Shown one piece after another: positions 23,343-51,935 of a stretch of DNA of 64,000 nt; within the stretch, counting starts at the first letter, position 1; every line of letters begins with the position of its first letter. The notes below the pieces were generated by a model. The model worked only from the letters and a program-made list of their open reading frames with translations, had not been told where the DNA came from and searched no databases. The position numbers and the translations under genes were made by a program. The stretch is taken from assembly GCF_014323725.1 (NCBI RefSeq), contig NZ_JABVED010000008.1:248001-312000 (forward strand), in the 5' to 3' direction. This DNA is from Actinokineospora xionganensis (GTDB lineage: Bacteria > Actinomycetota > Actinomycetes > Mycobacteriales > Pseudonocardiaceae).

Positions 23343-23368
23343 TGGCCCGTCCAGGAACGTGCCACTAG
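23339..23368. repeat. 30-bp miniature copy of the CTAG-flanked inverted-repeat element
   Basis: CTAG is present on both sides (23339-23342 and 23365-23368) of 22 bases that begin TGGCCCGTCCAGGAACGT and end GCCA. The first 18 bases match the terminal repeat of the 168-bp copies at 32625 and 51768, and the rest of the element is missing. The outer TAGTGGC / GCCACTA arms can pair, so the transcript could fold just after the response-regulator stop codon. Confidence 0.75.
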
Positions 23369-23439
23369 GTCCTGTCCTGTGAGTCCAATGCGCTTGCCAT
23401 GGCGAGGATCATTCGAACCATGTGCAAGAGGACGTACCC

Positions 23440-32028: not shown

Positions 32029-32628
32029 ATGACCCTCAAGCCACGTCGTGTCGCCGTCCTCGGCCTGCATTGGCAGGTCAACGTCATCAAGCCGGAGGGC
32101 TTCTTCGGCGCAATGCTCGCTGAACCAGTGGCCCGCAGCGGCGTGGTCGATCGGGCTGTCGCCTTCCACGCCGCCGCCCGCGCGATCGGAGTGCCGGTCA
32201 TCTTCACCAGATTCACCGTGCCGGTCGGCGAAGGCGGCTTGGTCCGCAACACCGGCTTCATGACGGCTGTCGCGGGCGCCCAGGAGTCGTTCCGGCCGGA
32301 CGCCCCCGGAGCGGCTTTGATCCCGGAGCTGGCGGAGCAGGCGGACCACGTCGTCGACAACCAGAAGCTGTCGGGCCTGGCGGGAAACGACCTGCCGAAG
32401 TGGCTGGCCGAACACGAGATCGACACGGTGTTCATCACCGGAGTGGCCACGAACCTGACCGTGGAGCAGACCGCCCGACACGGGACGGACCTGGGCCTGA
32501 CCGTCCACCCCATCAGCGACTGCGTCACGGCCGCGGCGGAGGAAGCCCACGTCGCCTCACTGGCCAACCTGGAGATGACGACAGCGGGCTGCCTTACCGC
32601 TGAAGAGGCGCTGGCCCTACTGACCTAG
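32029..32628 (+). CDS. Isochorismatase-fold protein lacking catalytic Asp and Cys
   Basis: The protein has 199 residues with the cysteine-hydrolase fold: a beta strand VAVLGLHWQV, Lys113 in VDNQKLSG and TVFITGVATNLTVEQTARHG. In active members the first strand carries Asp (VIDMQ) and the last motif carries Cys (ATNVCVE). Here these positions are His14 and Thr144, and only the Lys remains. It is therefore probably not a hydrolase of the usual mechanism and may bind a ligand or have new chemistry. Its TAG stop lies in the CTAG that bounds a 168-bp inverted-repeat element. It is divergent from the GMC oxidoreductase. Confidence 0.8.
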   Translation: MTLKPRRVAVLGLHWQVNVIKPEGFFGAMLAEPVARSGVVDRAVAFHAAARAIGVPVIFTRFTVPVGEGGLVRNTGFMTAVAGAQESFRPDAPGAALIPELAEQADHVVDNQKLSGLAGNDLPKWLAEHEIDTVFITGVATNLTVEQTARHGTDLGLTVHPISDCVTAAAEEAHVASLANLEMTTAGCLTAEEALALLT

Positions 32629-32792
32629 TGGCTCGTCCAGGAACGTTGGCCGGGTATCGGCGTGGTCACGGCGTCGCTGCCAAGGCGCGGGGACAGCGCT
32701 CGTACCGGGTTGTACTTGGCTGTTCCCGCAACGCGGGCAGCGGCGTCGTGGGCATGTCGAGACCCGGTCAACGTTCCTGAACGGGCCACTAG
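32625..32792. mobile_element. 168-bp MITE-like inverted-repeat element, copy 1
   Basis: CTAG flanks both ends (32625-32628, 32789-32792). Inside are terminal inverted repeats of about 20 bp (TGGCYCGTYCAGGAACGTTG). The central ~120 bp is GC-rich and carries no convincing gene. It differs from the copy at 51768-51935 at a single position (A32780 against G51922). It starts exactly on the stop codon of the isochorismatase-fold gene. Size, terminal repeats and a duplicated CTAG mark it as a non-autonomous element. Confidence 0.85.
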
Positions 32793-32925
32793 CCACGCCC
32801 GGCGGACTGTGGTCAGCGTGGACGTCCAGAGTGTTGGGCCGTGACTGGAAGCCACTGAAGCTTGTCCAGCGCGGCCCTGCGCCTGGGGAACGCCTGGGAT
32901 GGGCCCGCGTCTCGTCGGGGAACCG

Positions 32926-33933
32926 TCAGGTGCGGAGAGGCTCGCCCGAGTCGTGCAGGTGGCTGAGCACCTGCAGGTAGGACTCGAGCATTCCGCACGC
33001 CAGGTACGGGACGCCGATGCTCGCGCAATAGTCCCGCACCATCGGTTGCGCGTGCCGCAGATTGACGCTGGGCATGTTGGGGAACAGGTGGTGTTCGATC
33101 TGGTAGTTCAAGCCGCCCAGCATGATGTCGACCCCGTGGTTGCCGAGGATGTCGCGGGAGGTCAGGACCTGCTTGCGGAGGAAGTCGAGCTTCTCGTCCT
33201 TCGCGACCAGCGGCATGCCCTTGTGGTTCGGAGCGAACGACAGGCCGAGGTGGACACCCATCACGCCCTGGTGGACCAGGATGAACAGCACCGCCTTGCC
33301 CGGGGACAGCACCAGGAACACCGCCGTCAGGTACCCGATCACGTGGACCGCGAACAGCGTGGCCTCCAGCCGAACCGCCCGCACGTCCCGCTTCAGGATC
33401 GCTTCGAGGCCCGCGACCTTGAGCAGGATGCCCTGGGTCAGCAGCAGCGGGAGGAACAGGTAGGCCTGGTAGGCCGCGATCCACCGCAGGGGGCCGGTCT
33501 TGGTGCGGGCCTGGTCGCGGCTGAACGCCAGGGCCGGGATGTCGATGTCGGGGTCGTCGTCGTGGTTCGGGTTGGCGTGGTGGCGGTTATGCTTGCCCAC
33601 CCACCAGCCGTAGCTGATGCCCGTGATCGTCCCGCAGATGTAGCCGACCAGGTCGTTGTACCTGCGGGAGGTGAAGATCTGCCGGTGGCCCGCGTCGTGG
33701 CCGAGGAAGCCGAACTGGGTGGACACCAACGCCACGCCCACGGCGAGCAGCAGCTGCCACCACGAGTCACCAAGCAGGACGAAACCGACGGTCACACCGG
33801 CGAGGGCCAGCACGGTGAGCGCCATCCTGACGGCGTAGTACCCGTACCGCCGGTCGAGCAGGCCCGCGGCCTTGATCGAGCGGGCCAGATCGGCGAAGTC
33901 ACTGCCTCGCCGTTCAGCCAGAAGTTCGGTCAT
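32926..33933 (-). CDS. Membrane fatty acid desaturase
   Basis: The protein has 335 residues. The three histidine boxes of di-iron desaturases are present: HDAGH near residue 80, HNRHH near 117 and QIEHH near 285. The Gln in place of the first His of box three is typical of front-end and linoleoyl-CoA-type desaturases. There is no cytochrome b5 domain, so electrons must come from a separate ferredoxin or reductase. Four to six hydrophobic segments are visible. GGAGGT eight bases before ATG 33933 sets the start. The gene stands alone between the MITE region and the zapE gene. Confidence 0.9.
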   Translation of the reverse strand: MTELLAERRGSDFADLARSIKAAGLLDRRYGYYAVRMALTVLALAGVTVGFVLLGDSWWQLLLAVGVALVSTQFGFLGHDAGHRQIFTSRRYNDLVGYICGTITGISYGWWVGKHNRHHANPNHDDDPDIDIPALAFSRDQARTKTGPLRWIAAYQAYLFLPLLLTQGILLKVAGLEAILKRDVRAVRLEATLFAVHVIGYLTAVFLVLSPGKAVLFILVHQGVMGVHLGLSFAPNHKGMPLVAKDEKLDFLRKQVLTSRDILGNHGVDIMLGGLNYQIEHHLFPNMPSVNLRHAQPMVRDYCASIGVPYLACGMLESYLQVLSHLHDSGEPLRT

Positions 33934-34245
33934 CGTGGAAACCTCCGTCGACGAACAGGACATCCTTGGCGAAGCCCGTCAGGGAATCGTTCTGCCGTCA
34001 GCGGTCGCCGGACTCCAAGCGACCATAAGCCGAACCGGCCGAGAAACCGGACAACAGCGGAGAAACCCCAAGCGACAATCAGCGTTCGTGCGCGTGGACG
34101 ACCAGAACGTAGTCAAAATCCCACACAGCCGTGGGCGGCGGGACGGGGCCAGCGGCCCGCGTCTACTCCCCAGTTTAGCTTGTCGCGGCGCCGGCCACGG
34201 TTTCCTTCCGGCCACGGACCCCGTCGTAGATCAAGAAACGGTCGC
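33934..34245. other. 312-bp intergenic region upstream of the desaturase gene
   Basis: No convincing gene is present. It separates the desaturase gene from the end of zapE (same strand) and should hold the desaturase promoter. A direct repeat of CCGGCCACGG occurs near 34191 and 34207. I see no clear operator or terminator. Confidence 0.5.
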
Positions 34246-35208
34246 TCAGAGCAGCGACAGCCTGCTCGCCGTGCGGGCGAAATCGAGTGCCCGACAGGCG
34301 GGGAGCAGCTCCGGGAGCGGACGGTCGCCGACAAGGGTGAGCCGCAGGTCACGGTCACAGAGGACGTCGATGACGTTGGCGAATCGCTGGGCGGCGTCGG
34401 GGCTGTCGAGGCCGGTCAGGCCCGCGATGACCCACTCCGGGTACCGGTCGGCCAGTGTCAGGTAGTCCACCGTCGAGGTCGGGGTGTCGCACAGCTCGCC
34501 GAAGTCGAACCACACGAGGTCGCCGCGCACCGCCTCAGCGCGCAGGGGCCTGCCGGAGACGGTCAGGGCGCGCCGCTCAGCCGGGCCAGGCGGCACCAGA
34601 CCCGCGTCCCGCAACTGCTCCGCGGTGCCCGGCCACAGGTACCGGCCGCGCTCGAAGTTCGACCGAGGCTCGCCGCGCTCGGCCCGGTAGTCCCGATCAC
34701 CAGCCAACTCCACCACGTCCAGCATCTCCTCGATCAGCGCGATCGCCGGTTCGAACAGGTGGTGGTGCAGCGGGTTCGGCAGCAGCCCGGCGGGCGGGTA
34801 GTTCGACGTCGTCAGCAACACGACCCCGCGGTCGACCAACGCGCGCAGCATCGCGGCGACGAGCATCGCGTCACCGGGGTCGTGGACGTGGAACTCGTCG
34901 AAGCAGAGGAAGCGGCACCGGCCCAGCAACTCGTCGAGGGCCCGCTCGGCGGCACGCGGGCGGTGCCGGTGGCGGGCGTAGGCGGCGTGGAACTCGCGGA
35001 AGAACTCGTGGAAGTGCAGCCTGAGCTTGTGTTTGCTGTCGACGGCGGCGAACAGCACGGTCGTCAACCAGCTTTTGCCCCGCCCCACCGGGCCCCACAG
35101 GTAAACTCCGCGCGACTTGGGCAACTCCGCGAGCCGACGCGCCGCCCGCCGCTGCTCGTCGTCGAGCACGAACCCCGCCCGCTCGGCGGCGTCGTCGAAG
35201 ATCCGCAT
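34246..35208 (-). CDS. zapE: ZapE/AFG1-family cell-division ATPase
   Basis: The protein has 320 residues with Walker A GPVGRGKSW near residue 40, the family-specific HFHEFFREFH segment, Walker B FLCFDEFHVHD and sensor TTSNYPP. It ends with the DFGELCDTPTSTVDYLTLA and FVNVIDVL-like blocks of AFG1/ZapE. In E. coli ZapE is an ATPase that acts on the FtsZ ring; in mitochondria AFG1 helps protein quality control. Actinobacterial members are less studied. It follows the GntR gene on the same strand after an 80-bp gap with a hairpin. Confidence 0.9.
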   Translation of the reverse strand: MRIFDDAAERAGFVLDDEQRRAARRLAELPKSRGVYLWGPVGRGKSWLTTVLFAAVDSKHKLRLHFHEFFREFHAAYARHRHRPRAAERALDELLGRCRFLCFDEFHVHDPGDAMLVAAMLRALVDRGVVLLTTSNYPPAGLLPNPLHHHLFEPAIALIEEMLDVVELAGDRDYRAERGEPRSNFERGRYLWPGTAEQLRDAGLVPPGPAERRALTVSGRPLRAEAVRGDLVWFDFGELCDTPTSTVDYLTLADRYPEWVIAGLTGLDSPDAAQRFANVIDVLCDRDLRLTLVGDRPLPELLPACRALDFARTASRLSLL

Positions 35209-35258
35209 CTCCCACCCCCGCGATCACCTTCGCAGATCGGATTCGCAGCCCTCGCAGC

Positions 35259-35275
35259 CACCCGGCCCTCGGGTG
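35259..35275 (-). terminator. Possible terminator after the urea operon
   Basis: CACCCG-GCCCT-CGGGTG forms a 6-bp GC stem 12 bp after the GntR stop codon. A wider GATCACC / GGTGATC pairing surrounds it (35222-35277). There is no T run. Confidence 0.45.
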
Positions 35276-35287
35276 ATCCGCGCCCTA

Positions 35288-35971
35288 TCAGGCGATCGAC
35301 GGCCCATGGCTGTTGCGCGCCGTGAGTGCCCGGGTCGCGCGCTCGACGACGATCTCCAGCGAGGCTCCGATGTGCTCGTGCAGCAGCCGCAACGCCTTGT
35401 CGAGTTCCGCCGCCCGGACCCGTTCCATGATCTCGATGTGCTCGGCGATCGAGGTCTCGATGCGGCCTTCGACCAGGAAGTCGTACATGCGCACGACCCG
35501 GATCCGCCGGACCACCGAATTCAGCGCCTCCACCAATTCCGGGTTGCCCGAGCTTGCCAACAGCGCGGCATGGAAGCGCTCATCTTCCAGCACGAACTCC
35601 GGCGTGGGCGCGGGCGGATCGGCCCGCAGCGCGTACCAGTGCGCCAACTCCGCCGCCAGTGCCTCGGGATCGTGCCTAACCGACGGATTCTCGATGGCCC
35701 GACCGATCCCGCGCAGCTCCACGGCGATCCGCACTTCGTAGAGATCCCGGATCTTGGCCATGCTGGGCACGACGATCGCGTACCCGTAGTCCTCGCGCTG
35801 GACAAGCCCGTCGGCGAGCAGCCTGGTCAGCGCCTCCCGCACCGGGGTGCGTGAGACGCCGAGTTCGCGGGCGAGTCTGGGTTCGGTGAACCGGCCGGTC
35901 GCCGACCACTGTCCATCGAGGACCTGGTCGCGCAACCGCAGGTAAACCTGATCCCGCAGGGAACCGCTCAC
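35288..35971 (-). CDS. GntR-family regulator with FCD domain
   Basis: The protein has 227 residues. An N-terminal winged helix shows LARELGVSRTPVREALTRLLADGL. The C-terminal all-helical FCD ligand-binding domain has EVRIAVELRG, EDERFHAALLASSGNPEL and SIAEHIEIMERV, in which Asp/His residues bind a metal and effector. GTG 35971 is used; ATG 35998 would overlap urtE further. It is the last gene of the urea uptake and degradation operon, overlapping or touching urtE, so it is the best candidate for the operon's regulator. Confidence 0.85.
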   Translation of the reverse strand: MSGSLRDQVYLRLRDQVLDGQWSATGRFTEPRLARELGVSRTPVREALTRLLADGLVQREDYGYAIVVPSMAKIRDLYEVRIAVELRGIGRAIENPSVRHDPEALAAELAHWYALRADPPAPTPEFVLEDERFHAALLASSGNPELVEALNSVVRRIRVVRMYDFLVEGRIETSIAEHIEIMERVRAAELDKALRLLHEHIGASLEIVVERATRALTARNSHGPSIA

Positions 35972-35972
35972 C

Positions 35973-36659
35973 TCAGATCGCCATCGCCGCACGGACATCC
36001 CGCGCGGCCGCGGCCCCACCCGTGCCCGTGGCGGAGATACGACCCGCCTCCATCAAGTAGTACGCGCCCGCCGCGCCGAGCGCGAAGCCGATGTGTTGTT
36101 CCACCAGCAACACCGCCATATCCGTGGCCAGCGTGCTGATCGTCTGCTCGATCTCGGCCACCACCGACGGCTGAATCCCCTCGGTCGGCTCGTCCAAGAT
36201 GATCAGTCTCGGCCGAGTGACCAGCGCCCGCGCGATGGCGAGCTGCTGCCGCTGCCCACCGGAGAGCAAACCCGCCCGACGAGCCAAAAGCGGCGGCAAC
36301 GCGGGAAACCGGTCGAGCACCTCACTGATCGCCTTGCGCCCGCCACCGTTCACATCGGCTACGACCCGGAGATTGTCCCGCACCGTGAGCTGCGGGAAGC
36401 ACTGCTGCCCTTGGGGAACATAGGCCACACCCCTCCGGACCCTCTCATGTGGACGAAGCCTGGTCACGTCCTCGCCGTCGAGCAGCACCGATCCCGAGGT
36501 CGGCCGCAGCAACCCGGCGGCGGCGCGCAGCAGGGTCGTCTTGCCCGCGCCGTTGTGTCCCATCACGGCGACGACCCCGCCCACCGGCACGTCGAGGCGC
36601 ACCCCATGCACCACGGTTGTCCGCCCGTAGCCGATGTGCACATCACGAAGTTCCAGCAT
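35973..36659 (-). CDS. urtE: Urea ABC transporter ATP-binding protein UrtE
   Basis: The protein has 228 residues. It has Walker A GHNGAGKTT, PQGQQCFPQLTVRDNL typical of UrtE, signature LSGGQRQQLAIARAL, Walker B LIILDEPTEGIQPS and VEQHIGFAL. GHNGAGKTT and DEPTEGIQ distinguish UrtE from LivF. Its start shares one base with the urtD stop (TGATG). Confidence 0.92.
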   Translation of the reverse strand: MLELRDVHIGYGRTTVVHGVRLDVPVGGVVAVMGHNGAGKTTLLRAAAGLLRPTSGSVLLDGEDVTRLRPHERVRRGVAYVPQGQQCFPQLTVRDNLRVVADVNGGGRKAISEVLDRFPALPPLLARRAGLLSGGQRQQLAIARALVTRPRLIILDEPTEGIQPSVVAEIEQTISTLATDMAVLLVEQHIGFALGAAGAYYLMEAGRISATGTGGAAAARDVRAAMAI

Positions 36660-37405
36660 CACGCCCCCACCTCCGCGGCCGTGCCCAGGTAGACCTCCTG
36701 GACCCTCGGGTCCGCCTGCACCTGAGCCACCGTCCCCTCGCTGAGCACCTTCCCGGCATGCAGCACCGTCACCGAATCGGCGAAGCACCGCATGAAGTCC
36801 ATGTCGTGCTCAACCACCACGACAGTCCGCTCCGCCCCGATCCGGCGCAACAACTCCCCCGTGTCCGCGCGTTCCTGTGCGCTCATCCCCGCCACTGGCT
36901 CATCGAGCAGCAGCACCCGGGCGTTCTGCACGATCAGCATCCCGATCTCCAGCCACTGCTTCTGCCCGTGTGGCAATACCCCGGCAGGTTTGTCCCGAAC
37001 GTCAACCAAGCCGACGGTCTCCAATGCCTCCTCGACCTCAGCGGGCACCGACGAGCGCCGCCGCAACAGCGTCAGCGGCCCCCGACCCGCACCGGCGGCG
37101 ATGTCCAGGTTCTGCAGCACGGTCAGGTTCTCGAACACCGTCGCCGTCTGGAATGTGCGCCCGATGCCCAGCCGGACGATCCGGTGCACCTTGCGTCCCA
37201 ACAGTTCCGTCCGCCCGAACAGCGCCGATCCGGTAGCGGGCGCCAATCCGGTGATCGCGTCGACCAGCGTCGTCTTTCCCGCGCCGTTCGGCCCGATCAG
37301 GAACCGCAAATCCCCCCGCGGCACGGTCATCGTCACGCCGTCGACGGCGACGAAACCGTCGAATGTGACCCGCACGTCGGAGAGTTCGAGGTAGTCGGCG
37401 TTCAT
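36659..37405 (-). CDS. urtD: Urea ABC transporter ATP-binding protein UrtD
   Basis: The protein has 248 residues. Walker A is GPNGAGKTT, then GRTFQTATVFENLTVLQNL, a signature region LPHGQKQWLEIGMLI (HGxKQWLEI is characteristic of UrtD), Walker B VLLLDEPVAGMS and VEHDMDFM. It heterodimerises with UrtE to power the urea importer. Start overlaps the urtC stop (ATGA). Confidence 0.92.
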   Translation of the reverse strand: MNADYLELSDVRVTFDGFVAVDGVTMTVPRGDLRFLIGPNGAGKTTLVDAITGLAPATGSALFGRTELLGRKVHRIVRLGIGRTFQTATVFENLTVLQNLDIAAGAGRGPLTLLRRRSSVPAEVEEALETVGLVDVRDKPAGVLPHGQKQWLEIGMLIVQNARVLLLDEPVAGMSAQERADTGELLRRIGAERTVVVVEHDMDFMRCFADSVTVLHAGKVLSEGTVAQVQADPRVQEVYLGTAAEVGA

Positions 37406-38436
37406 GTCGCCTCCCTGGTACGGCGCCGCAGGGACGCGACGGTCGACAGCCCGCTGGGCAGGAACGCCACCACGAGCAGGAACAGCGCGCCCTGGAAGTA
37501 GATCCAGAACGACGGGAAGCTCTCCGAGAGCGTGGTCTGCGCCCAGGCCACGACGATCGCGCCCACGGCCGGGCCGAACAGCGTCGACCGGCCGCCGATC
37601 GCCACGCCGATCAGGAACGCGATCGACGGGACCACACCCACGCTCGCCGGCGAGATGATCCCCACGATCGGCACGAACAGCGCCCCCGCGACACCGGCCA
37701 TCGCCGCCGCCACGACGTAGGCGACAATCTTGATGTTCGCCGGGTCGTAGCCGAGGAAGCGGACCCGCTCCTCCTGGTCACGCACGGCCATGAGCAGCTC
37801 GCCGAAACGGGACCGATAGAGCTGCCAGGCAATCGCCAACACCACCAACAGGGTCGACGCGGCGATGTAGAACAGCATCCGCTTGTTGACCGGGTCGTAG
37901 AGGGCGAAGCCGAAGAACGAGCGGAACCCGTTGAGCCCGTTGGTCCCGCCGATCGTGGCATGCTGCCCGACGAGCAGGATCGCGAACGCCGCCGCCAGCG
38001 CTTGCGACAGGATCGCGAAGTACGCGCCGCGCACCCGCCTGCGGAACACCGCCGCCCCCAGTCCGAGCGCCACCAGCGACGGGATCGCGATGACGCCGAT
38101 GACTGTGACGACCGGACTGCGGAACGGCTCCCACCAGCCCGGGACCTCACCGGAGCCGTAGAGCTTCATGAAATCCGGCACCCCGGACGGGCCGGCGTCG
38201 GCGAGTTTGAGGTGCATGGCCATGACGTAGGCGCCGAGGCCGAAGAACACGCCTTGGCCCAGGGTCAGCATCCCGCCGCGGCCCCACGCGAGGCCGATGC
38301 CGACCGCGACGATGGCGTAGCAGACGAACTTGCCGAGCAGCGAGAGCCGGAAGTCCGACAGCAACGCGGGTGCGAGCACCAGCAGGGCGAGCGCGCCGAC
38401 GGCGAACCCGATGAGCGCCCCGAGTTCGCGCCTCAT
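37402..38436 (-). CDS. urtC: Urea ABC transporter permease UrtC
   Basis: The protein has 344 residues with about ten hydrophobic segments. UrtC marks are GLAWGRGGMLTLGQGVFFGLGAY, MKLYGSGEVPGWWEPF, GGTNGLNGF and the coupling loop LLMAVRDQEERVRFLGYDPAN. It starts on the urtB stop (ATGA, 38436). Confidence 0.92.
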   Translation of the reverse strand: MRRELGALIGFAVGALALLVLAPALLSDFRLSLLGKFVCYAIVAVGIGLAWGRGGMLTLGQGVFFGLGAYVMAMHLKLADAGPSGVPDFMKLYGSGEVPGWWEPFRSPVVTVIGVIAIPSLVALGLGAAVFRRRVRGAYFAILSQALAAAFAILLVGQHATIGGTNGLNGFRSFFGFALYDPVNKRMLFYIAASTLLVVLAIAWQLYRSRFGELLMAVRDQEERVRFLGYDPANIKIVAYVVAAAMAGVAGALFVPIVGIISPASVGVVPSIAFLIGVAIGGRSTLFGPAVGAIVVAWAQTTLSESFPSFWIYFQGALFLLVVAFLPSGLSTVASLRRRTREAT

Positions 38437-39317
38437 GCCAAGCTCCTGGTCCGGACGCTGAAGATGCCCTGCGGCCGGGCCTGCAGGAACACCACGACCA
38501 ACGCGAACACCGCCACCTTCGCCAGGCTCGCGGTGGTGGAGTACTCGATGCCCGCCTGCAGCAGGCCAAGGCCGAACGCGGCGATGACCGTCCCCTTGAT
38601 CTGGCCGACGCCGCCCGCCACGACCACGAGGAACGCGTCGACGATGTAGTTGGAGCCCAGCGTCGGGCCGGTCGAGCCGAGCAGGGTCAGCGCCACCCCG
38701 GCGATGCCCGCCAGACCGGACCCGATGAAGAAGGTGAGTCGATCGGTGGCCCGGGTGGACACCCCGGCCGTCTCCGCGAGGTCCCGGTTCTGCACCACCG
38801 CCCGGATTCGCCTGCCCAGCGCGGTCTTCGTCAGCACCAGCGCCAAGCCGGTCACCGCGACGACGGCGAGTCCGAGGATGAACAGCCGCGCCGCGGGCAC
38901 CTGGGTGATGCCCAAGTCCACGCTCCCGCTGAGCCAACTCGGCGCGCGAACGTCGACATTGGGCGCGCCGAAGACGTCCCGCGCGACCTGTTGCAGGATC
39001 AGGGCCACGCCCCAAGTCACCAGCAGTGTGTCAAGTGGACGGAGATACATCCGGCGGATCAGGGTGGCCTCCAGGACCACCCCCATCACACCGCCGACGA
39101 CGAATCCGAGCGGGATGGCCAGGATGAGCGCGACCCCGGCGTCGGCGATGACGTTCTGCGCGACGTACGCGGTGTAGGCGCCCGCCATCATGAACTCGCC
39201 GTGCGCCATGTTGATCACGCCCATCTGGCCGAACGTCAGCGCCAGGCCGAGCGCCGCGAGGAGCAACACGGAGCCTAGGGACAGTCCCGCGAACAGTTGG
39301 CCCAGCACCGCGTCCAT
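38433..39317 (-). CDS. urtB: Urea ABC transporter permease UrtB
   Basis: The protein has 294 residues with about eight membrane segments. It shows FGQMGVINMAHGEFMMAGAY, typical of UrtB, and the coupling loop IRAVVQNRDLAETAGVST. Some UrtB proteins have a long N-terminal periplasmic domain; this one is the short form. It starts one base after the urtA stop codon. Confidence 0.92.
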   Translation of the reverse strand: MDAVLGQLFAGLSLGSVLLLAALGLALTFGQMGVINMAHGEFMMAGAYTAYVAQNVIADAGVALILAIPLGFVVGGVMGVVLEATLIRRMYLRPLDTLLVTWGVALILQQVARDVFGAPNVDVRAPSWLSGSVDLGITQVPAARLFILGLAVVAVTGLALVLTKTALGRRIRAVVQNRDLAETAGVSTRATDRLTFFIGSGLAGIAGVALTLLGSTGPTLGSNYIVDAFLVVVAGGVGQIKGTVIAAFGLGLLQAGIEYSTTASLAKVAVFALVVVFLQARPQGIFSVRTRSLA

Positions 39318-39318
39318 A

Positions 39319-40557: not shown

Positions 40558-40592
40558 GGTGATGCCTTTCGCGGGGAGGGGAGTACGCCAGA

Positions 40593-45200: not shown

Positions 45201-45838
45201 GCCCGGGCGACGAACCGTTCGAGGAACACGCCACCGGACCCGAAGTTCGCCTCGGCGATCCCCCGCACGCCCGGGAACGCCTCCCGCACCTCGATTTCGT
45301 CCGCGCAGGGCCTCAGTCCGATGCCGCCACCACCAGCTGTGGCTTTGAGCATCACCGGGTATCCGATCTCCGCGGCCGCCCGCACCGCCTCGTCGGCGTC
45401 GGCGAGCAGCCCGCTGCCCGCCAGCAGCGGCACCCCGGCCCGCTCGGCGGCCTGCCGAGCGGAGTGCTTGTCCCCGAACAGCTCCAACTGCTCCGGCGTC
45501 GGCCCGACGAAGATCAGCCCGGCGCCGGCCGCGGCCCTGGCGAACGCGGCGCTCTCGGAGAGAAAGCCGTATCCGGGGTGGATGGCCCCGGCCCCGGTCG
45601 CCTGGGCCGCGGCGATGATCCGGGCCATGTCGAGGTACGTCTCAGCGGGCGCGGTGCCTACGAGGTGCACGGCGTCGTCGGCGAGCCGGGTGTGCGGCGC
45701 CCCCGCGTCGGCGTCGGAGTACACCGCCACCGTCCGCAGCCCGAGTGCCCGCGCGGAGCGGATGATCCGACACGCGATCTCCCCTCGGTTGGCGACGAGC
45801 ACCGCTGTATACAGCCCTGTCGACTTCGCCGTATCCAT
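42275..45838 (-). CDS. uca: Biotin-dependent urea carboxylase
   Basis: The protein has 1,187 residues. Domains in order are biotin carboxylase (VLVANRGEIACRIIRSARALG, ATP loop KATAGGGGIGLRP, EVNTRLQVEHPVTE), a carboxyltransferase pair of the KipA and KipI type (residues ~460-1040), and a C-terminal biotinyl domain with Lys in RLEAMKLEV. It carboxylates urea, or guanidine in some homologues, to the allophanate-type product. Neighbouring urea transport genes favour urea. Start ATG 45838 lacks a ribosome-binding site, so a leaderless or slightly different start is possible. It is the first gene of an eight-gene operon. Confidence 0.92.
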   Translation of the reverse strand: MDTAKSTGLYTAVLVANRGEIACRIIRSARALGLRTVAVYSDADAGAPHTRLADDAVHLVGTAPAETYLDMARIIAAAQATGAGAIHPGYGFLSESAAFARAAAGAGLIFVGPTPEQLELFGDKHSARQAAERAGVPLLAGSGLLADADEAVRAAAEIGYPVMLKATAGGGGIGLRPCADEIEVREAFPGVRGIAEANFGSGGVFLERFVARARHVEVQVFGDGAGTVVCLGDRDCSVQRRNQKIVEEAPAPGLPDDVRERLHRTARELCASVDYLGAGTVEFVYDTDRGEVSFLEVNTRLQVEHPVTEEVTGIDLVGWMLRLAQGERGFLTDATPAGHAVEARIYAEDPVLDFRPSSGLVTRAEFPEGVRVDGWVEAGQTVSAAYDPLLAKVIAHGPDRATALARLGAALAETRIDGVQTNLGQLRTICADPRTYTTSDTFVDSEPRVDVLRGGTSTTVQDWPGRIGYWQVGVPPSGPMDDRSFRAGNLALGNPEGTPGLECTFEGPVLRFSAAATVCVTGAPAIVTVDGDPVSQWEPVDVPAGGVVEVGTPPGPGMRTYVLVRGGFDVPIYLGSAATFTAGAFGGHGGRALRTGDVLRPGAAPRTVSVPIEPPEFPSRWEIEVSEGPHAAPDFLTRDGLARFYGTDWSVHTQSARNGVRLNGPKQLWARPDGGDAGLHPSNVHDTAYSVGAVNVSGDTPVLLGPDGPSLGGFICPVTVVSGARWKIGQLRPGDTVRFVPVPEATATALHNRTAPARPHAVGGDGDDGVLARLDARDAAPSVTYRRSGHDNVLVEYGPMTLDLGLRLRVHALMAAIDELAPAGIVDTTPGVRSLHLHTDPEVLPLRTLLGLLREAEALIPATAELAVPSRTVRLPLSFDDPSIHEAIERYQANVRDDAPWNPDNIEFIRRINGLSTVDEVRDIVFDASYLVLGLGDVYLGAPAATPLDPRHRLVTTKYNPARTWTPEGGVGIGGAYMCVYGMESPGGYQLIGRTVPIWSGLRQYGPFESGVPWLLRFFDRVSFYPVSAGELLDVRADLKAGRAELAIGEGEFVLAEHERFLAANAAGIEAFRARQNSAFEAERQAWHMAGEFDPRPEPEPVPPLQVRVPPGGSLVEAPLSASVWRIDARAGDTVVAGQPLMRLEAMKLEVVVRAPVDGVVAEILVAPGQHLDAGHALAVVARREAA

Positions 45839-45853
45839 GGGCGGAAAATTAGG

Positions 45854-45872
45854 GAGCCGGTGTTTCCGGCTC
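45854..45872. promoter_or_regulatory. Palindrome in the urea carboxylase / DUF202 divergent promoter
   Basis: GAGCCGG-TGTTT-CCGGCTC has perfect 7-bp arms and lies 16 bp upstream of the urea carboxylase start, in a 103-bp divergent intergenic region. It could be an operator for the GntR protein at the operon end or a 5' leader hairpin. Confidence 0.5.
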
Positions 45873-45941
45873 GGCGTCCGCGGATGGCGATCATGTGTCC
45901 CCCGATTACGGCTCGCCGTGCCCGCACGTAACACGAGGTGG

Positions 45942-46313
45942 ATGATCGACCATATGGACGAACGCTGGCCCCACCAGGTCTACGGCGTGGGCGAGGACCC
46001 CGACGCGCGGTTCACCCTCGCCAACGAACGCACCATGCTCGCCTGGATCCGCACGGCCCTGGCGCTGATCGCCGCGGGCGTCCTGGTCGACGCGGTCAAC
46101 CTGCCCATCGCCGAGGGCCCCCGCCGCTGGCTGGCGGCGGGCTTGGTGCTGCTCGGCGCGATCACCGCGACCGGCGGCTGGTTCCGCTGGGCCCGCACGG
46201 AACGCGCGCTGCGCACCGGCACGCCCATGCCCGCGCCCACCTTGGGCGCGGTGATCGTCGGCGGCCTCGTGGTCGCGGCGGCGCTGGTGCTGGCGGTGAT
46301 CCTGCTCCGATGA
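45942..46313 (+). CDS. YidH/DUF202 membrane protein
   Basis: The protein has 123 residues with three hydrophobic segments. The family motif is FTLANERTMLAWIRTALALIAAG with the conserved ANERT(F/M)LAW box. The function of DUF202 proteins is not established. GAGGTGG lies immediately before ATG 45942; ATG 45954 is an alternative. Its stop overlaps the start of a second DUF202 gene, an arrangement common in actinobacteria. Confidence 0.85.
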   Translation: MIDHMDERWPHQVYGVGEDPDARFTLANERTMLAWIRTALALIAAGVLVDAVNLPIAEGPRRWLAAGLVLLGAITATGGWFRWARTERALRTGTPMPAPTLGAVIVGGLVVAAALVLAVILLR

Positions 46314-46564
46314 CCCTGCACGTCGAACGCACCCGTCTCGCGTGGGCGCGGACCACGCTGGCCCTCATCGGCCTCGCCGCCGTGGTGATCCGGCTGCGCA
46401 TCGACCAGCCGGTCCTGGTCGGCACCGCCACCTTCGCCATCGGCCTGCTGCTGCTCGCCACGCTGCGCGGCAACCGGCGAGCCGACGGCGCCATGCCCGC
46501 GGCGGTCGTCGGGCTGGTGCTGGTCGTCGTCGTGGTCGAACTGGTCGGAATCCTCAGCGGCTGA
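46310..46564 (+). CDS. Second DUF202 membrane protein
   Basis: The protein has 84 residues with three hydrophobic segments and a shortened form of the family motif (VERTRLAWARTTLALIGLA). It is coupled to the previous gene by ATGA and its 3' end overlaps the convergent beta-propeller pseudogene by 11 bp. The pair may form a hetero-oligomer in the membrane. Confidence 0.82.
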   Translation: MTLHVERTRLAWARTTLALIGLAAVVIRLRIDQPVLVGTATFAIGLLLLATLRGNRRADGAMPAAVVGLVLVVVVVELVGILSG

Positions 46565-47782
46565 GCAGGCCCGCGTCGACCTTGCCGAGCCGCATGCGCT
46601 GCGGGTGGTCGCCGACCGGCACGCTGGAGACTTCCCGGCCGGTGGCGTAGGAGATCGCGGAGACCCGGTCGCTGCCGCTCCAGGAGACGAAGCAATGCGC
46701 GCCGTCGCGGCTCGGGGTGGCCCAGTACGGCTTGAGGCCGGTGCTGACCAGGCTCGGGAAGCTGAAGTCGGCCCGGTCGACGATCGCGGCGTAGTCCGAC
46801 ATCGTCCCCGCCACGCAGATCTTCCTGTCTTCGCCGCCTATCGCGATCCCGTGGTGTGCCGAGTCGAGCAGGTACTGCTCCCTCGGCAGGTCCTTCACGT
46901 GGTCGGCGATGGGCAGATTCGCGACTCGGGTCACCTTGTCGGCCACGAGGTCGTACTCGACGAAGCCGTGGAAGAACGAGACCTGCAGGTAGGCGTAGCG
47001 CTCGTTGTTGGTCAGCGTCATCGGCCGCACCGCGGCGCTCATCCCCGGATACCCGGCCTCGGCGAGCTTGGCCCCCATGTCGATCCGCTTGACCACCTGG
47101 TTGGTCACGGCGCGACGACCTGGAAGTACCGCGCCCCCTTGGTCGAGTCGAGCGCAGGAAGGTCGAGCGGGGTGTAGACGGTGCCGATGCTGGCATGGAA
47201 GATGCGCGCCGCGTCCCGCGAATACACGTTCTCGTGCGGCGAGTCCCCAGACGGGAAGGTGCCCACCTCACGCCCGGTCGCCACGTCGAGGATGTGCACA
47301 ACGTTCGCCGTGGAAGCCGACACGGCGACCCGCGTCCCATCCGGCGACAGCGCCATGTGGTCGGACCGCTGCCCTTGGACCACGAACCGCCACACGACGG
47401 CGCCGGAGGCCAGGTCGATCGAGACGACGTCGGCCAGACTCGGCCGGGAGACGATCAGCCGTCGCCCGTCCGGCGTGGTGTACATGTCGTCGACGAACTG
47501 GTCATGCCCCTCGCCGACGAACTGCCGGATGGCAACGAAGTAGGCCAGGCGCACCGGGTTCAGATAGATCTCGGTCATCCGTTGACGGATGTCCGGGATG
47601 ACGTCGACTCGCCCCAACCTGCGCAGCGGCAACTCAGTGGAGACGAGGTCGGCGGTGCCGTCCCAGTTGTTGCCGACGAAGAGCACCTCCCTCAGGGGAG
47701 CAGCTTGAGCGGGCACAGTCGGCACCACGACCGCCGCCACCACCGCAACCGCGGACAGCTTCGCGACCAGCTTGATCCACAT
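46554..47782 (-). pseudogene. Secreted YncE-like beta-propeller protein, frameshifted
   Basis: The N-terminal frame (ATG 47782, stop 47105) has a signal peptide (VPTVPAQAAP) and propeller repeats such as HMALSPDGTRVAVSASTANVVHILDVATGREV. It stops right after GARYFQVVAP. The second frame (46554-47108) continues the same repeat from TNQVVKRIDMG to SYATGREVSSVPVGDHPQRMRLG. Restoring one base near 47110 would give VVDAVTNQVV, the expected blade boundary. So a single-base deletion splits the gene; a sequencing error is equally possible. The second frame could start at a GTG that overlaps the first stop. Related proteins are quinoprotein-like surface or periplasmic lactonase-fold proteins. Confidence 0.75.
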
Positions 47783-47835
47783 CCGACCCTCGTTTCTCGG
47801 CGCCCGCAAAGGTCAACGACCAGCACACAGCCGGG

Positions 47836-48261
47836 TTACGCGAGGATCGTTCGCATATTGGCCGACAAGGTTTTGGCGAGAATCACCAGGAGCGCGCCCG
47901 CCCCGACCAGCAGCACGAGCGTGATCACTCCGAAGACGGCGACCTGGCGATACCGAATTGCGTGTCGCAGGCGGTAGTTGGCGGCCAGGGCAGCCACCGT
48001 GCAAGTGATTGGAGCCACCCAAGACCAGTCGGGGTGGACTACGAGTCCGACGACAGCAAGCGCGCCGAGGAAGAAGCTCAAGATCATGGCGTAGAGACTG
48101 CCGCTCTTGACGATTCCGTCTTGCCACGCCAGAGGCAGCAGGCTGTCGTCCACCACCATCCAACTCTCGGTCTCGGCCAACCTTCGTTCGGGTTGTTCTA
48201 CACGTTCCAACCGCACCTTGATCCACCGGAGACTCAAGCGCAAGGTGCCTCTGGGGTTCAC
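47836..48261 (-). CDS. Membrane protein of unknown function
   Basis: The frame has 141 residues. The first ~50 residues are charged, then come three hydrophobic segments (LYAMILSFFLGALAVVGLVV, WVAPITCTVAALA, VFGVITLVLLVGAGALLVIL). No family was recognised. No good ribosome-binding site precedes GTG 48261, and a later start (ATG at the MVVDDSLLPL segment) is possible. It lies between the propeller pseudogene and a lipoprotein gene on the same strand. Confidence 0.5.
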   Translation of the reverse strand: MNPRGTLRLSLRWIKVRLERVEQPERRLAETESWMVVDDSLLPLAWQDGIVKSGSLYAMILSFFLGALAVVGLVVHPDWSWVAPITCTVAALAANYRLRHAIRYRQVAVFGVITLVLLVGAGALLVILAKTLSANMRTILA

Positions 48262-48349
48262 GACGAGGGCGGCGACTGCTCACCGCATGAGCGGGAGGTT
48301 CAAGCGCCCACCGGCATGAACCAAGCGTGTCGAGCACAGAGTCCGACTG

Positions 48350-48862
48350 TCAGTTCTGCGGCGCAGGCGTTCCTTCTGGCCAAACGCACGGCGAGGTGGA
48401 GATCACGTAGAAACCGCCGACGTCATTAGCCTTCAGCGAGATTCGGAAGCTGTCGTTCTTGTTCTCCGCCCACAGGTACATGTCTTTGGGCCGCGAGTCC
48501 TCCAGTATCTGGAAGTTGTGAGTTTCCCACCATTGTTTGATGGTGTCGAAGTAGGCGTTGTAGTCGGCTGGCGGAAGATCGTGTATTTGGTACGAGTGGG
48601 ATTCCGTGACGCGACCGCGTGGTCCGTTGTCGGTGGGGTCGTCGCAGTTCTGAGGTGTGCTGAGGCGTTGTTCGAGCCGTGCCTCCTTAGGGAGAAGAGC
48701 GACGACTGCGTGGATGTTCTCCTCCACCCGTCGTGCGGCCTCCTGTTGTGTGATCGTGTTGCGCATTTCGTCTCCACAGCCAGATATGAGGATGGTCGAC
48801 AAACCGAGCGTGACGAGCGCCCGTCGACGGGGGCCAGATTTTCTTGTGGCGACTCTGTTCAT
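48350..48862 (-). CDS. Lipoprotein of unknown function
   Basis: The protein has 170 residues. A signal peptide ends in the lipobox LISGCG, after which ~140 residues of mixed alpha/beta follow with IHDLPPADYNAYFDTIKQWWE and a paired Cys near each end of the mature domain. This resembles short lipoproteins found next to DUF1023 hydrolases in actinobacteria. It overlaps the stop of the truncated DUF1023 gene (ATGA), which supports a common origin as an operon. Confidence 0.75.
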   Translation of the reverse strand: MNRVATRKSGPRRRALVTLGLSTILISGCGDEMRNTITQQEAARRVEENIHAVVALLPKEARLEQRLSTPQNCDDPTDNGPRGRVTESHSYQIHDLPPADYNAYFDTIKQWWETHNFQILEDSRPKDMYLWAENKNDSFRISLKANDVGGFYVISTSPCVWPEGTPAPQN

Positions 48863-49644
48863 GTTGTCGGTTTCCCCGCGATGATGTTTCCCATATTATT
48901 CAACGCCTTATTCTCTTGGTCCCAGTATTGGCTGTGGGCTTCAGTGCTGTACCCGGTCCAACTTGATGTTCCTGGGTCGGAGGTGAACACGTTGCCGCCG
49001 AACATGGGGCCTGCGGGGTCGGGTCCGTGGACGTCGAAGGGTTCTTTGAACACGTTGGTGACCTGGATGACGTCGTGCTTGGCGACGGTGGAGTGGACGT
49101 TCTCGGGTGGCAGGCCGAGGTCTTCGGCGCGGCTGACGCCGGTTCCGGGGCTGCCGACGAAGACGACGTCGTCGGCGTTGATGTTCATGTCGCGGGCGGT
49201 GTGGCCGATGACGGTGGAGCCGTAGCTGTGTCCGATGACGGTGTTGTGCGAGGGCGTCCCCTGATGGGTGGCGCGTAGGCCGTCCTGGAAGCGGTCCAGG
49301 TCCTGGCGGGCGTTCTGTGCGTAGTCCTCATCGGCGGCGGCGACGAGATCCTGCGGGGCGTCGTAGCCGATCCAGGTGATCGACGCGGTGGACGGTGAAC
49401 CCGCCTGCTTCGCTGCGTCGACCATGCTGTCGGAGCGGCCGATGTCGGTGCCGCAGGTGCCGAGCCTCGCGCCGGTTCCGGGCACGAAGGTCGCGACGTT
49501 GGCCGCGGTGTCGGGGTTTCCGATTGCGACGATGGCACGGCCGTTGCCGGAGCTGTCGATACCGAGCAAGTAGGCCTGCTGTTGGCCGGCCTGCGGTGAG
49601 GTGAGCCGCTTCTCGATGGTGTCGAGTCCACCGAGCGAGTATGA
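48859..49644 (-). pseudogene. DUF1023 alpha/beta hydrolase, 5'-truncated
   Basis: The remaining frame covers the hydrolase core: LGGLDTIEKRL, YLLGIDSSGNGRAIVAIGNPD, VPGTGARLG, the nucleophile elbow VIGHSYGSTVIG, VFVGSPGTGV and the His region TEAHSQYWD. DUF1023 proteins normally carry several hundred more N-terminal residues. Here homology begins abruptly near 49644, the sequence just upstream is unrelated, and an in-frame TAG follows at 49675. The only starts left are internal TTG codons such as 49569. A deletion or rearrangement has removed the 5' part and promoter. About 115 bp with no gene separate it from the HNH gene end. Confidence 0.7.
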
Positions 49645-49760
49645 CGCAACCGGCCACGCTCTGGAGCCAGACGACTACAGAAGGGAGTAGAACTACCTAC
49701 TGCTCTCCCATGCCTCTTGATCATCTGGCCGACAGTCAGGCGCGCCGGTGTCCGACGGAC

Positions 49761-51122
49761 TCACTTCACGAATCGGTTCGCCCGGTGCCAAGCGAAGTAC
49801 GGTTCCGTGCCTGGCCGGTGCGCAGAGCAGCGCCGGGTGCCCACGAGGGTCACGTGGTCGGCGAACCGTCCACTCGGCATGGCTTCCGCAGTCCGGATCC
49901 AGCCGTCCTTGTCGACCGTGATGTACCCCAGTTCGAACAGCATGTCGCAGCCGAAGGCACAGGCGGCCATCGCGACATTGCGCAGGTCGCGGCGCTCTTC
50001 GTCGGTACACTGCGACCGGGGCTTGATGTGGGCGGCGACCAGGTAGCGCAGCGGGAACGTGTCTCCGCACAGTGCGCACTGAGCGGTGTCGTCGGTGCCC
50101 ACGACCAGCTTGCGCAGCTCCGCCTGCTCAACTCGGCGGACGGCGGCGGTCATCTTGTCGAGGGTGTCCGGCGGCAGCGACGGCAGCGTCGCCTTGGTGA
50201 CCGAGTCGAAGGCCGTGCGGATCTCGATCATCGCCCGCTCCGCCACCCCTGCGAGACCGACCCGGTCAAGCAGGTCGGCTTGATCGGCGAGGTCGGACAA
50301 GTGCTCGGTACGCAGGACGTAGATCGATTCGGCCCGCACGACCGGGTTGGCAAGCAGAGCGGCCGCGTCTTCGGTGAACCCGGCGCGGGCGTCCGTGTCC
50401 GCTGCGGTCGGCGGGCCAGCCAGGTTATGCCTCTCCCAGAGTGTCGAGTCGCTGCCGAGGTGCCAGAACGGATACCGCGGTGCGGCCGACGCTCCGAAGT
50501 CTCGCAGCAGGTCGCCGACCTCCTTGTCGAATTCCGGCCAGTCGAACAACCGGCCCTCACCAGCTGCCAGGCGACCGAGCGCCCAGAGGAGCGCGATCGG
50601 CTCGCGAGCGGGCTTCCCACCCGAGTTGTGGACCTTGAGCGACTTCAGGGACGCAATGAGATCATCGACCAGCAGCGGCGCGGCCAGGTCCCGCTCCAAT
50701 CGCGGGCCGTCCGCGATCCCGTAACCAGGCACTTCGAGGACCAGACGCATGCGTTTGCGGTTGTTGCCCGCCTTCGGAGCGCCCTCTTCCTGGCCGATCC
50801 GGCCCTGCGCACTGGTCAGCCGCTTGCGCAGCGCATCGAAGTCGGAGGCCGGACTCAGCTGGATTGAGCCGTCGGTGAGTAATCGTTTGTGGAGCGGCAG
50901 GTCGGCAGTCTTCTTCGACTCCACCGCCGCGGAGACGATCACCGCCGACCGCTGGGCCAGTCTGCCGAGGAGCACCACCAGGGCGGGCACGTAGTCCCGG
51001 TTACGTGGCCCGTTCTTGGTCCTCCCACCAGCGCTTTCGAAGGTCATCGACAGCTGCCCGTCGTGGGCCTCGACGGCGAACTCCGCGATGAGCGGTGTAC
51101 CTGAGTCTGTGAACGGTTGCAC
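49761..51122 (-). CDS. HNH endonuclease, probable ScoMcrA-like (phosphorothioate-dependent type IV) restriction enzyme
   Basis: The protein has 453 residues from GTG 51122, which has a GGTGGA site. Residues 1-120 resemble the N-terminal domain of ScoMcrA-type enzymes (RNRDYVPALVVLLGRLAQ). A middle domain (ALLWALGRLAAGEGRLFDW, PRYPFWHLGSD) looks like the sulfur-binding domain that reads phosphorothioate DNA. The C-terminus is an HNH module: CALCGDTF, VAAHIKPRSQ, DLRNVAMAACAFGCDMLFE. The last conserved His of many HNH enzymes appears here as Cys (FGCD), so activity is uncertain. No modification genes (dnd or ssp) are nearby. The family call is from memory of motifs. Confidence 0.6.
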   Translation of the reverse strand: MQPFTDSGTPLIAEFAVEAHDGQLSMTFESAGGRTKNGPRNRDYVPALVVLLGRLAQRSAVIVSAAVESKKTADLPLHKRLLTDGSIQLSPASDFDALRKRLTSAQGRIGQEEGAPKAGNNRKRMRLVLEVPGYGIADGPRLERDLAAPLLVDDLIASLKSLKVHNSGGKPAREPIALLWALGRLAAGEGRLFDWPEFDKEVGDLLRDFGASAAPRYPFWHLGSDSTLWERHNLAGPPTAADTDARAGFTEDAAALLANPVVRAESIYVLRTEHLSDLADQADLLDRVGLAGVAERAMIEIRTAFDSVTKATLPSLPPDTLDKMTAAVRRVEQAELRKLVVGTDDTAQCALCGDTFPLRYLVAAHIKPRSQCTDEERRDLRNVAMAACAFGCDMLFELGYITVDKDGWIRTAEAMPSGRFADHVTLVGTRRCSAHRPGTEPYFAWHRANRFVK

Positions 51123-51258
51123 AGTTCCACCATTCCCGATCAAGGTCACGGTGACGATTCGGTCAGTCCTGGGACAGGAAACCGCCCCAGGGTGTCGGTG
51201 CCGCACCTGATCGTGGCACCATCTTGCGCACGCGCGGGCGGCACCTGAGGGAGATCGG

Positions 51259-51771
51259 ATGAACGACCGGACCGAACAGGTCGATGACCTCCAGCTAGTC
51301 GCCCTGCCCAGTGCGATCGGCTGTGCCGAGATGTTCGTCCGGTTCTCACTGACCGAGTGGGCGCTGCGGGACATGCGTGACGTGGCCGCGGAGGCGGCCA
51401 GGGTCGTCACCACCGCGGTGGTGGACTCGGTCAATCCGGCTGCCCCCGGGATGATGACCGCGCGGGTACGGCTGTCCGGCGCCGACCTGATCTTCGAGGT
51501 CGAGTCGCAGCTGCCGGTGCCGACGCCCGCCATTCCCGGTGTGGCGCGGGTGGGGACCACCCAGATCGACCACGGCCGCTACATCGTCTGGTTCGCCCTG
51601 GCCCTGCCCAGCGGCATGAACGCCTCGGCGGTGCCGCTGCCCCGACGCCAGCGCAAGGCCTCGCAGGCCGCGCGGGCGGCGGTGCCCGACGAGCCGATGA
51701 CGACCGACCCGGACGTCATGCGGCGGATCTTGTTCGGCCTCAACGGCTCCCCCGACCAGCGCCGCACCTAG
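51259..51771 (+). CDS. Possible anti-sigma-type ATP-binding regulatory protein
   Basis: The protein has 170 residues. The opening LQLVALPSAIGCAEMFVRFSL and the helix EAARVVTTAVVDSV resemble the first strand and N-box helix of RsbW-like GHKL anti-sigma factors, common in actinomycetes. I see no clear G1/G2 ATP-lid motifs, so nucleotide binding is doubtful. A basic tail of ~45 residues follows. GAGGGAGA precedes ATG 51259. It is divergent from the HNH gene (136 bp between starts), and its TAG stop lies in the CTAG of the second 168-bp inverted-repeat element. Confidence 0.6.
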   Translation: MNDRTEQVDDLQLVALPSAIGCAEMFVRFSLTEWALRDMRDVAAEAARVVTTAVVDSVNPAAPGMMTARVRLSGADLIFEVESQLPVPTPAIPGVARVGTTQIDHGRYIVWFALALPSGMNASAVPLPRRQRKASQAARAAVPDEPMTTDPDVMRRILFGLNGSPDQRRT

Positions 51772-51935
51772 TGGCTCGTCCAGGAACGTTGGCCGGGTAT
51801 CGGCGTGGTCACGGCGTCGCTGCCAAGGCGCGGGGACAGCGCTCGTACCGGGTTGTACTTGGCTGTTCCCGCAACGCGGGCAGCGGCGTCGTGGGCATGT
51901 CGAGACCCGGTCAACGTTCCTGGACGGGCCACTAG
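51768..51935. mobile_element. 168-bp MITE-like inverted-repeat element, copy 2
   Basis: CTAG borders lie at 51768-51771 and 51932-51935, with terminal inverted repeats as in copy 1. The two copies are identical but for one base in the right repeat, which makes this copy's repeats slightly more perfect. It begins on the stop codon of the upstream gene. The flanking sequences of the copies are unrelated, so the whole 168 bp moved as a unit, recently. Confidence 0.85.

Follow-up and report, generated by a model that had tools for sequence, protein, structure and literature searches.

The window considered here is a stretch of 64,000 nucleotides from Actinokineospora xionganensis (contig NZ_JABVED010000008.1, positions 248,001 to 312,000), in which two nearly identical palindromic elements of 168 bp and one 30-bp miniature each begin at the TAG stop of a gene. 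This arrangement raises the question of what kind of element this is, how it moves, and why it is found at the ends of genes. With a probability of roughly 0.7, it is a composite, non-autonomous DNA transposon of about 168 bp, in which an IS630-like outer module is joined to a separate core-hairpin module that changes ends, and of which one strand is selected to fold. The conserved core, common to elements with unrelated ends, goes beyond what the sequence of the window alone could show.

The element and its copies

The initial annotation of the window described a family of CTAG-flanked miniature inverted-repeat transposable elements (MITEs), and much of its account holds. The two 168-bp copies differ at a single base (A/G at offset 155), the 30-bp miniature is present as described, CTAG lies on both sides of both copies and of the miniature, and in all three cases the left CTAG contains the stop of an open reading frame. 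CTAG is indeed rare, with 22 occurrences in the window against a mean of 55 in dinucleotide shuffles. Of the gene labels, those of a response regulator (LuxR-type) and an isochorismatase are upheld by Pfam, and the protein called anti-sigma-like matches no Pfam family at an E-value of 0.001. Terminal inverted repeats of about 20 bp were not borne out, the whole element instead being one imperfect hairpin with a folding z-score of -10.7 as DNA and -13.8 as RNA, a fold equalled by none of 200 shuffles.

Six near-full copies, one of them 167 bp long, were found in the 6.8-Mb draft genome of the window (70 contigs), along with several miniatures or single ends. Three copies are identical across 168 bp and a fourth is one base off, in agreement with the recent movement that had been proposed. 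Like MITEs in general, the element is short and non-coding, with terminal inverted repeats and multiple near-identical copies. The stop of a convincing gene lies at the boundary in 12 of 15 tabulated sites of this genome, with L007 ambiguous and L006 and L027 lacking one; the table omits further core matches (e.g. C10:29070, L069).

A conserved core between unrelated ends

CTAG-bounded palindromes of the same genome and of the genus have their centre in common and differ in their ends. L007, from the genome of the window, carries the same core between quite different ends, the match being confined to positions 25-144, and with L045 it represents a third end type. The end of L057 resembles that of the IS5 copy L075 (91% over 23 bp), and that of L188 resembles L072 (96% over 23-24 bp). 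The end classes used below are a rough division by tip letters, in which some “other” rows belong to the GTG type without CTAG and GG tips were not individually assigned to an insertion sequence (IS).

A sequence-only model, for which 15 IS630-ended rows served as input, detects the core in 28 of 29 differently ended loci, at E-values of 4e-18 to 2e-4 (L383 being missed), and finds no core in six transposase loci or in L400 at E-values up to 1. Its matches mostly span model positions 14-15 to 103-106, which places a boundary between modules some 36 bp inside either end. Judged by its sequence, the core of about 92 nt is homologous between IS630-ended elements and others, some of which have IS5/DUF4096-like ends. 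Where the core does turn up in the transposase loci examined, it belongs to one of two distinct elements lying next to an IS (L083, L235); the match that ranks next has an E-value of 0.038, and no interior derived from an IS630 partner was found in these loci. With 30 candidates scored in each genome, a covariance model detects the core within the family, read as Pseudonocardiaceae, in 48 of 120 genomes, which belong to 23 of 46 genera. At the level of the class, where ten candidates were scored in each, the figures are 51 of 355 genomes and 15 of 127 genera, with many weak, uninspected matches included. Among 19 loci read from the class search (L381-L399), L398 contains no such element and L395 and L397 are without clear ends on both sides.

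Core and ends also keep a nearly fixed distance. Properties of this kind were counted in 109 non-redundant elements; a few genomes dominate the fetched loci from which these came, and the set is not a random sample. Entry required an apex-pattern match and an arm-alignment score, with duplicates removed, and elements with another apex or a duplicate key (for example L035, L131, L132 and L141) are missing. Length is 166-168 bp in 70 of the 71 elements with CTAG at both ends, the remaining one being 163 bp, and holds in both main end classes; the core lies at almost constant spacing from CTAG.

A search of Rfam returned nothing relevant in 10 element loci at E-values up to 1, its two matches being a thiamine pyrophosphate (TPP) riboswitch and a weak viral family. 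The riboswitch match (L067, 595-725, minus strand; 48.2 bits against a gathering score of 54.3) lies 0.7 kb from the element. No description of this hairpin family was found in the open-licence literature of PubMed Central (PMC), which is weak evidence of absence.

Folding of one strand

Across 26 sequences, 20 of the 28 consensus pairs of the core are altered at both partners in one sequence or more, and the bases pair in 96.3% of cells, although the structure was derived from the same alignment on which it was tested, which favours it somewhat. Neither figure is reached in any of 500 shuffles, and slid versions give 7-10 such pairs with 37-51% of cells paired. Compensatory pair changes are thus found together with conserved loop letters, as in structured RNAs.

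The two arms, aligned in a wobble-blind manner, disagree in a strand-specific way. On the apex strand the 109 elements contain 1057 G.U and 173 A.C oppositions, divided as 431:69 in the outer 35 nt and 626:104 in the inner part. G.U exceeds A.C in 107 of the 109 (67/67, 29/30 and 11/12 by crude end class), and in 23 of 25 representatives of less than 80% identity (227 versus 48; sign test p 2e-5). In an earlier set, chosen partly by the fold energy of this same strand, all 72 elements fold better on the apex strand, by a mean of 33 kcal/mol under RNA parameters. Since the arm mismatches on one strand are mostly G.U rather than A.C, one single strand appears to have been selected to fold. Wobble pairs would keep an RNA hairpin paired while the DNA palindrome is interrupted, and mutation bias may add to the asymmetry.

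Target site and empty sites

CTAG stands at the left end of 88 of the 109 elements and at the right end of 82, as compared with 1/109 and 3/109 in shifted control windows. The proposal of a CTAG-targeting element is thus sound as to preference, but not as to CTAG being the unit duplicated. Nine elements depart at the outermost base alone, and independently per side: left TTAG with right CTAG (L108, L114, L153), left CTAG with right CTAA (L102, L106, L111, L190), and left TTAG with right CTAA (L145, L209). Accordingly, the duplicated unit appears to be the TA inside YTAR, mostly CTAG, rather than CTAG itself.

Joined flanks of eight sites from the genome of the window were compared with 16 genomes of the genus. 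In the sister genome G014 the alignment crosses the junction at six of the eight. Clean empty sites with a single CTAG are found at L003, a GTGG-type copy, and at L065 and L066, which have GG-type ends; G014 has CTAG plus ten additional bases at L010, CTAA at L005 and about 1 kb of other DNA at L067, and none of the listed G014 matches concerns L006. Taken over ten sites, three are cleanly empty in G014, two are close (L010, L005), two are uninformative and three are without the target. Empty sites retaining CTAG, as had been predicted, are therefore present elsewhere in the genome, but not at the two window copies or the miniature, where the prediction is weakened. Target duplication and empty sites in relatives, both expected of a MITE, are found in the family, though none of the clean empty sites is at a position within the window. 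Mobility is implied by the copies and the empty sites.

Isochorismatase homologues of other genera proved too distant to serve as empty sites (28 were read, with 24 TGA, 3 TAG and 1 TAA stops). L045 and L102 share an upstream gene, yet are separate insertions about 11 bp apart rather than one. L045 is inserted within the 3' end of its gene, where the frame, followed by eye along the alignment, runs into the element and meets a TGA, giving a new C-terminus. The isochorismatase-desaturase interval, where the window carries its element, contains in G014 (L327, ~7020815-7021805) two other large inverted repeats (TTTAATTCTCGATCATC...), possibly of another repeat family.

Transposon ends and candidate transposase

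At each end of the element, the outer ~36 bp are similar to the terminal sequences of IS630-family (DDE_3) elements in sister species of the genus, of whose 16 genomes eight contain DDE_3 matches. The DDE_3 locus L239 is the only one shown with both ends like those of the window's element (identity of 81% across 37 bp and of 80-81% across 32-35 bp; E-value of 0.001 against a small local database). Four further DDE_3 loci (L243, L245, L248, L249) match at one end, at 77-85% over 31-35 bp and E-values of 2e-5 to 0.04, some of them weak. IS630-like ends, as expected of a MITE derived from this family, are thus present. Tips starting CTAGTG lie near a DDE_3 match in nine loci (L234, L239, L241, L243, L245, L248, L249, L250 and L252), and two elements of 1.18 kb, L237 and L242, carry CTAGTGTC at either end. 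Two further tips were dropped, that of L236 for lying outside the inverted repeats of its IS and that of L244 for looking like a MITE remnant.

These elements support the earlier suggestion of a transposase encoded elsewhere. The identification extends to the family of the partner and not to a gene now present in the same cell, because the only DDE_3 element of the window's genome has other ends and the genomes G006 and G015 have no match. This single element (L253, ~2450-3690, on contig C2) is CTAG-bounded and of the IS630 family, with ends unlike those of the MITE. Its transposase is split over two frames around a T-run, and the element, preceded by a leftover GCCACTAG, adjoins a full MITE copy. 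An autonomous partner with matching ends was not found in the 70-contig draft, in which DUF4096 and Y1 transposases, also considered as partners, gave no match; plasmid and phage records likewise gave none. An inverted pair of ends 1.79 kb apart in G015 (L100) is not an autonomous element but two miniatures at gene ends, and a 2.74-kb pair (L101) contains no transposase recognised by eye. The two deleted elements of L100 (1284-1348 and 3010-3074) lie at gene ends of what by eye is an ABC-transporter operon.

Taken together, the element shows several hallmarks of an IS630-type MITE, but its interior is absent from the IS630 copies examined, and the genome that carries it yielded no partner.

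Stop-codon bias

The initial annotation placed the family exactly on stop codons, which proved to be a bias only. By a simple gene caller, 49 of the 99 elements that have CTAG at one end or both lie at a stop. Among 199 background CTAGs, from which those resembling element ends were excluded, 41 are at stops, 45 are coding and 113 are other, so that 41 of the 154 outside coding sequence are at stops (Fisher p 2.7e-4 for elements versus this non-coding background). The stop lies in the left CTAG in 35 of 88 cases and in the right CTAG in 21 of 82 (p 0.052).

This enrichment is in keeping with CTAG supply and the removal of harmful insertions. Few CTAGs lie inside genes here, and many of those remaining are provided by TAG stops with a C before them, so that surviving insertions would gather directly behind genes. 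Plausibly, then, the enrichment is due to selection, and no stop-codon sensor is needed.

Proposed mechanism and its alternatives

In the proposed mechanism, an IS630-type transposase is predicted to cut and paste the element in trans, and the partner in the genome of the window may be absent, lost, unassembled or too diverged. The core would be a separate functional module that swaps transposon ends, with selection acting on one strand that folds as RNA, the more likely form, or as single-stranded DNA. The leading guess, and the weakest step, is that the hairpin in read-through RNA from the neighbouring gene could make an insertion cheap for the host, by way of 3'-end formation or protection. 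We infer mobilisation in trans by an IS630 transposase, the switching of ends, and whatever function the hairpin may have. More tentatively, the core may be a selfish single-strand hairpin, RNA or single-stranded DNA, found across Actinomycetes and adopting the ends of whichever CTAG-targeting transposon is resident (IS630, IS5 and at least one further type), as a cargo older than its ends that jumps between transposase families at near-fixed length.

Several observations weigh against the composite transposon, or against parts of it. The elements show hardly any preferred orientation relative to the neighbouring gene, an argument against a strand-specific role in that gene's mRNA. Some flanks (CTAC, CTAT, CCAG, TCAG, CTGG) fit no simple YTAR rule. 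At the second window copy (L002, window 51768) G014 shows a 12-base gap and is without CTAG; at window 32625 the gene of both G014 and G007 stops with TGA, and no CTAG was seen; and at the miniature site G014 keeps the TAG and not the CTAG. No inverted pair of MITE ends at IS spacing was found in the genome of the window (up to 3 mismatches in 22; 70-contig draft), nor, by eye, among the 37 listed ends of G006 (up to 1 mismatch in 17), and the copy-rich G006 and G015 are without a DDE_3, DUF4096 or Y1 transposase match. G.T is tolerated in DNA hairpins, and 24 of the 25 representatives fold better on the same strand under DNA parameters. Finally, young singleton changes lean the same way as fixed ones, with 30 from Watson-Crick pairs to G.U and 17 to A.C in seven groups (p 0.08).

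This last observation invites a purely mutational account, in which the exposed strand loses C to T and wobble pairs build up without selection. Such an account is improbable. In the five homogeneous groups (the mixed G000 and G031 being left out) young changes stand at 20:12, and fixed differences are more skewed, at 227:48 (Fisher p 0.016), which modestly favours selection; moreover, both-sided changes occur in 20 of the 28 core pairs, and the elements lie in both orientations to genes. An alternative role for the fold is as a single-stranded DNA hairpin needed for movement or excision, as in IS200/IS605, REP/RAYT and integron attC sites, with the ends serving as stem and CTAG as cleavage site. 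It would explain why strand-specific folding extends over the outer arms and why the distance from CTAG to apex is nearly fixed despite unrelated outer arms. It is nevertheless unlikely, as no Y1 transposase match is found in the genome of the window, G006 or G015 (two of the 16 genus genomes have one), the ends resemble the termini of DDE-type insertion sequences, a TA duplication fits DDE transposition, and the strands in G006 show by eye no obvious replichore bias when the origin is assumed at base 1.

The position of the elements could also suggest that they are kept as transcription terminators for the genes whose stop they hold, half of them being at a stop and the RNA hairpin being very strong. 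Right ends hold stops too, however, several sites of the window's genome are empty in G014, and the position can follow from CTAG distribution and purifying selection, all of which makes this role doubtful. An ordinary MITE, that is, an internally deleted and fortuitously palindromic IS630 whose core is passenger junk and whose similarity to other cores is coincidence or a structure-driven match, would account for the IS630-like ends and the target. This is very unlikely, given that the core is homologous by sequence alone to that of differently ended elements, is found in transposase loci only in the two separate elements L083 and L235, has pairs kept by compensation and sits in elements of nearly constant length. 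The composite transposon with a module of its own at the centre is the reading retained here.

Features of the window

Coordinates are collected in Table 1. The limits of the core follow from where the sequence-only model (R2) ceases to match differently ended elements. The miniature is directly abutted by the 18-bp tip of a second MITE type (23369-23386), the two having a CTAG in common, and the sister genome G014 is without both.

Table 1. Hairpin elements of the window and the genes that they adjoin
Feature	Position	Strand	Remarks
Full 168-bp hairpin MITE	32625..32792	+	IS630-like ends; CTAG both sides; + is the best-folding strand
Conserved core hairpin (~92-94 nt), common to elements with other ends	32663..32756	+	Limits estimated
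Apex motif CTCGTACCGGGTTGTACTTGG (GTAC-loop-GTAC)	32699..32719	+	
Second full copy	51768..51935	+	One base different
Core hairpin, second copy	51806..51899	+	
Apex motif, second copy	51842..51862	+	
30-bp miniature	23339..23368	+	Both outer ends, interior gone
CTAG + 18-bp tip	23365..23386	+	Identical to end of GG-type (IS5-like-ended) MITE L067, same genome
LuxR-type response regulator gene	22722..23342	+	Start predicted; TAG stop in left CTAG of miniature; Pfam
Isochorismatase-family gene	32029..32628	+	Start predicted; TAG stop in left CTAG; Pfam
Open reading frame, 170 aa	51259..51771	+	TAG stop in left CTAG; no Pfam match

Comparison with known systems

The closest relatives are the insertion sequences and MITEs of the IS630/Tc1-mariner group, to which the MITEs Correia, RUP and Nezha belong. 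The TA duplication, the preference for TA in CTAG and the resemblance of the genus IS630 ends to those of the MITE are all in common, and TA within CTAG as the preferred target is named in a title (Tenzen and Ohtsubo 1991) included in the reference list of PMC2170065. Unlike these systems, the window's element has an interior present in no IS copy examined, and a conserved hairpin common to differently ended elements. Other members of the hairpin family end like GGGCGTGTCC next to CTAG, as do the IS5 copies L075 and L072, whereas the two full copies of the window are without such ends and their genome is without a DUF4096 match. The DUF4096 elements of the IS5 family are presumably of the IS427 type, and the target of IS5/IS427 is YTAR.

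Repetitive extragenic palindromic (REP) sequences, which are associated with tyrosine transposases of the Y1 type (RAYT), are likewise palindromic, mostly intergenic and present in many copies with a folded strand; in contrast, the window's element is about 168 bp long with CTAG on both sides and a TA duplication, and the copy-rich genomes G000, G006 and G015 have no Y1 match. Structured RNAs of the kind collected in Rfam resemble the core in covariation and in conserved unpaired apex letters, but none of relevance was matched in the 10 element loci.

MITEs normally keep the ends that are recognised by their transposase while the interior drifts. Here the interior is kept, one strand is apparently selected to fold and the ends resemble different transposase families, and a kept interior with varying ends implies a function of the hairpin. 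With this family, transposon “host switching” becomes testable in bacteria, and it shows how insertions can be directed towards the ends of genes where CTAG is scarce, as in high-GC genomes.

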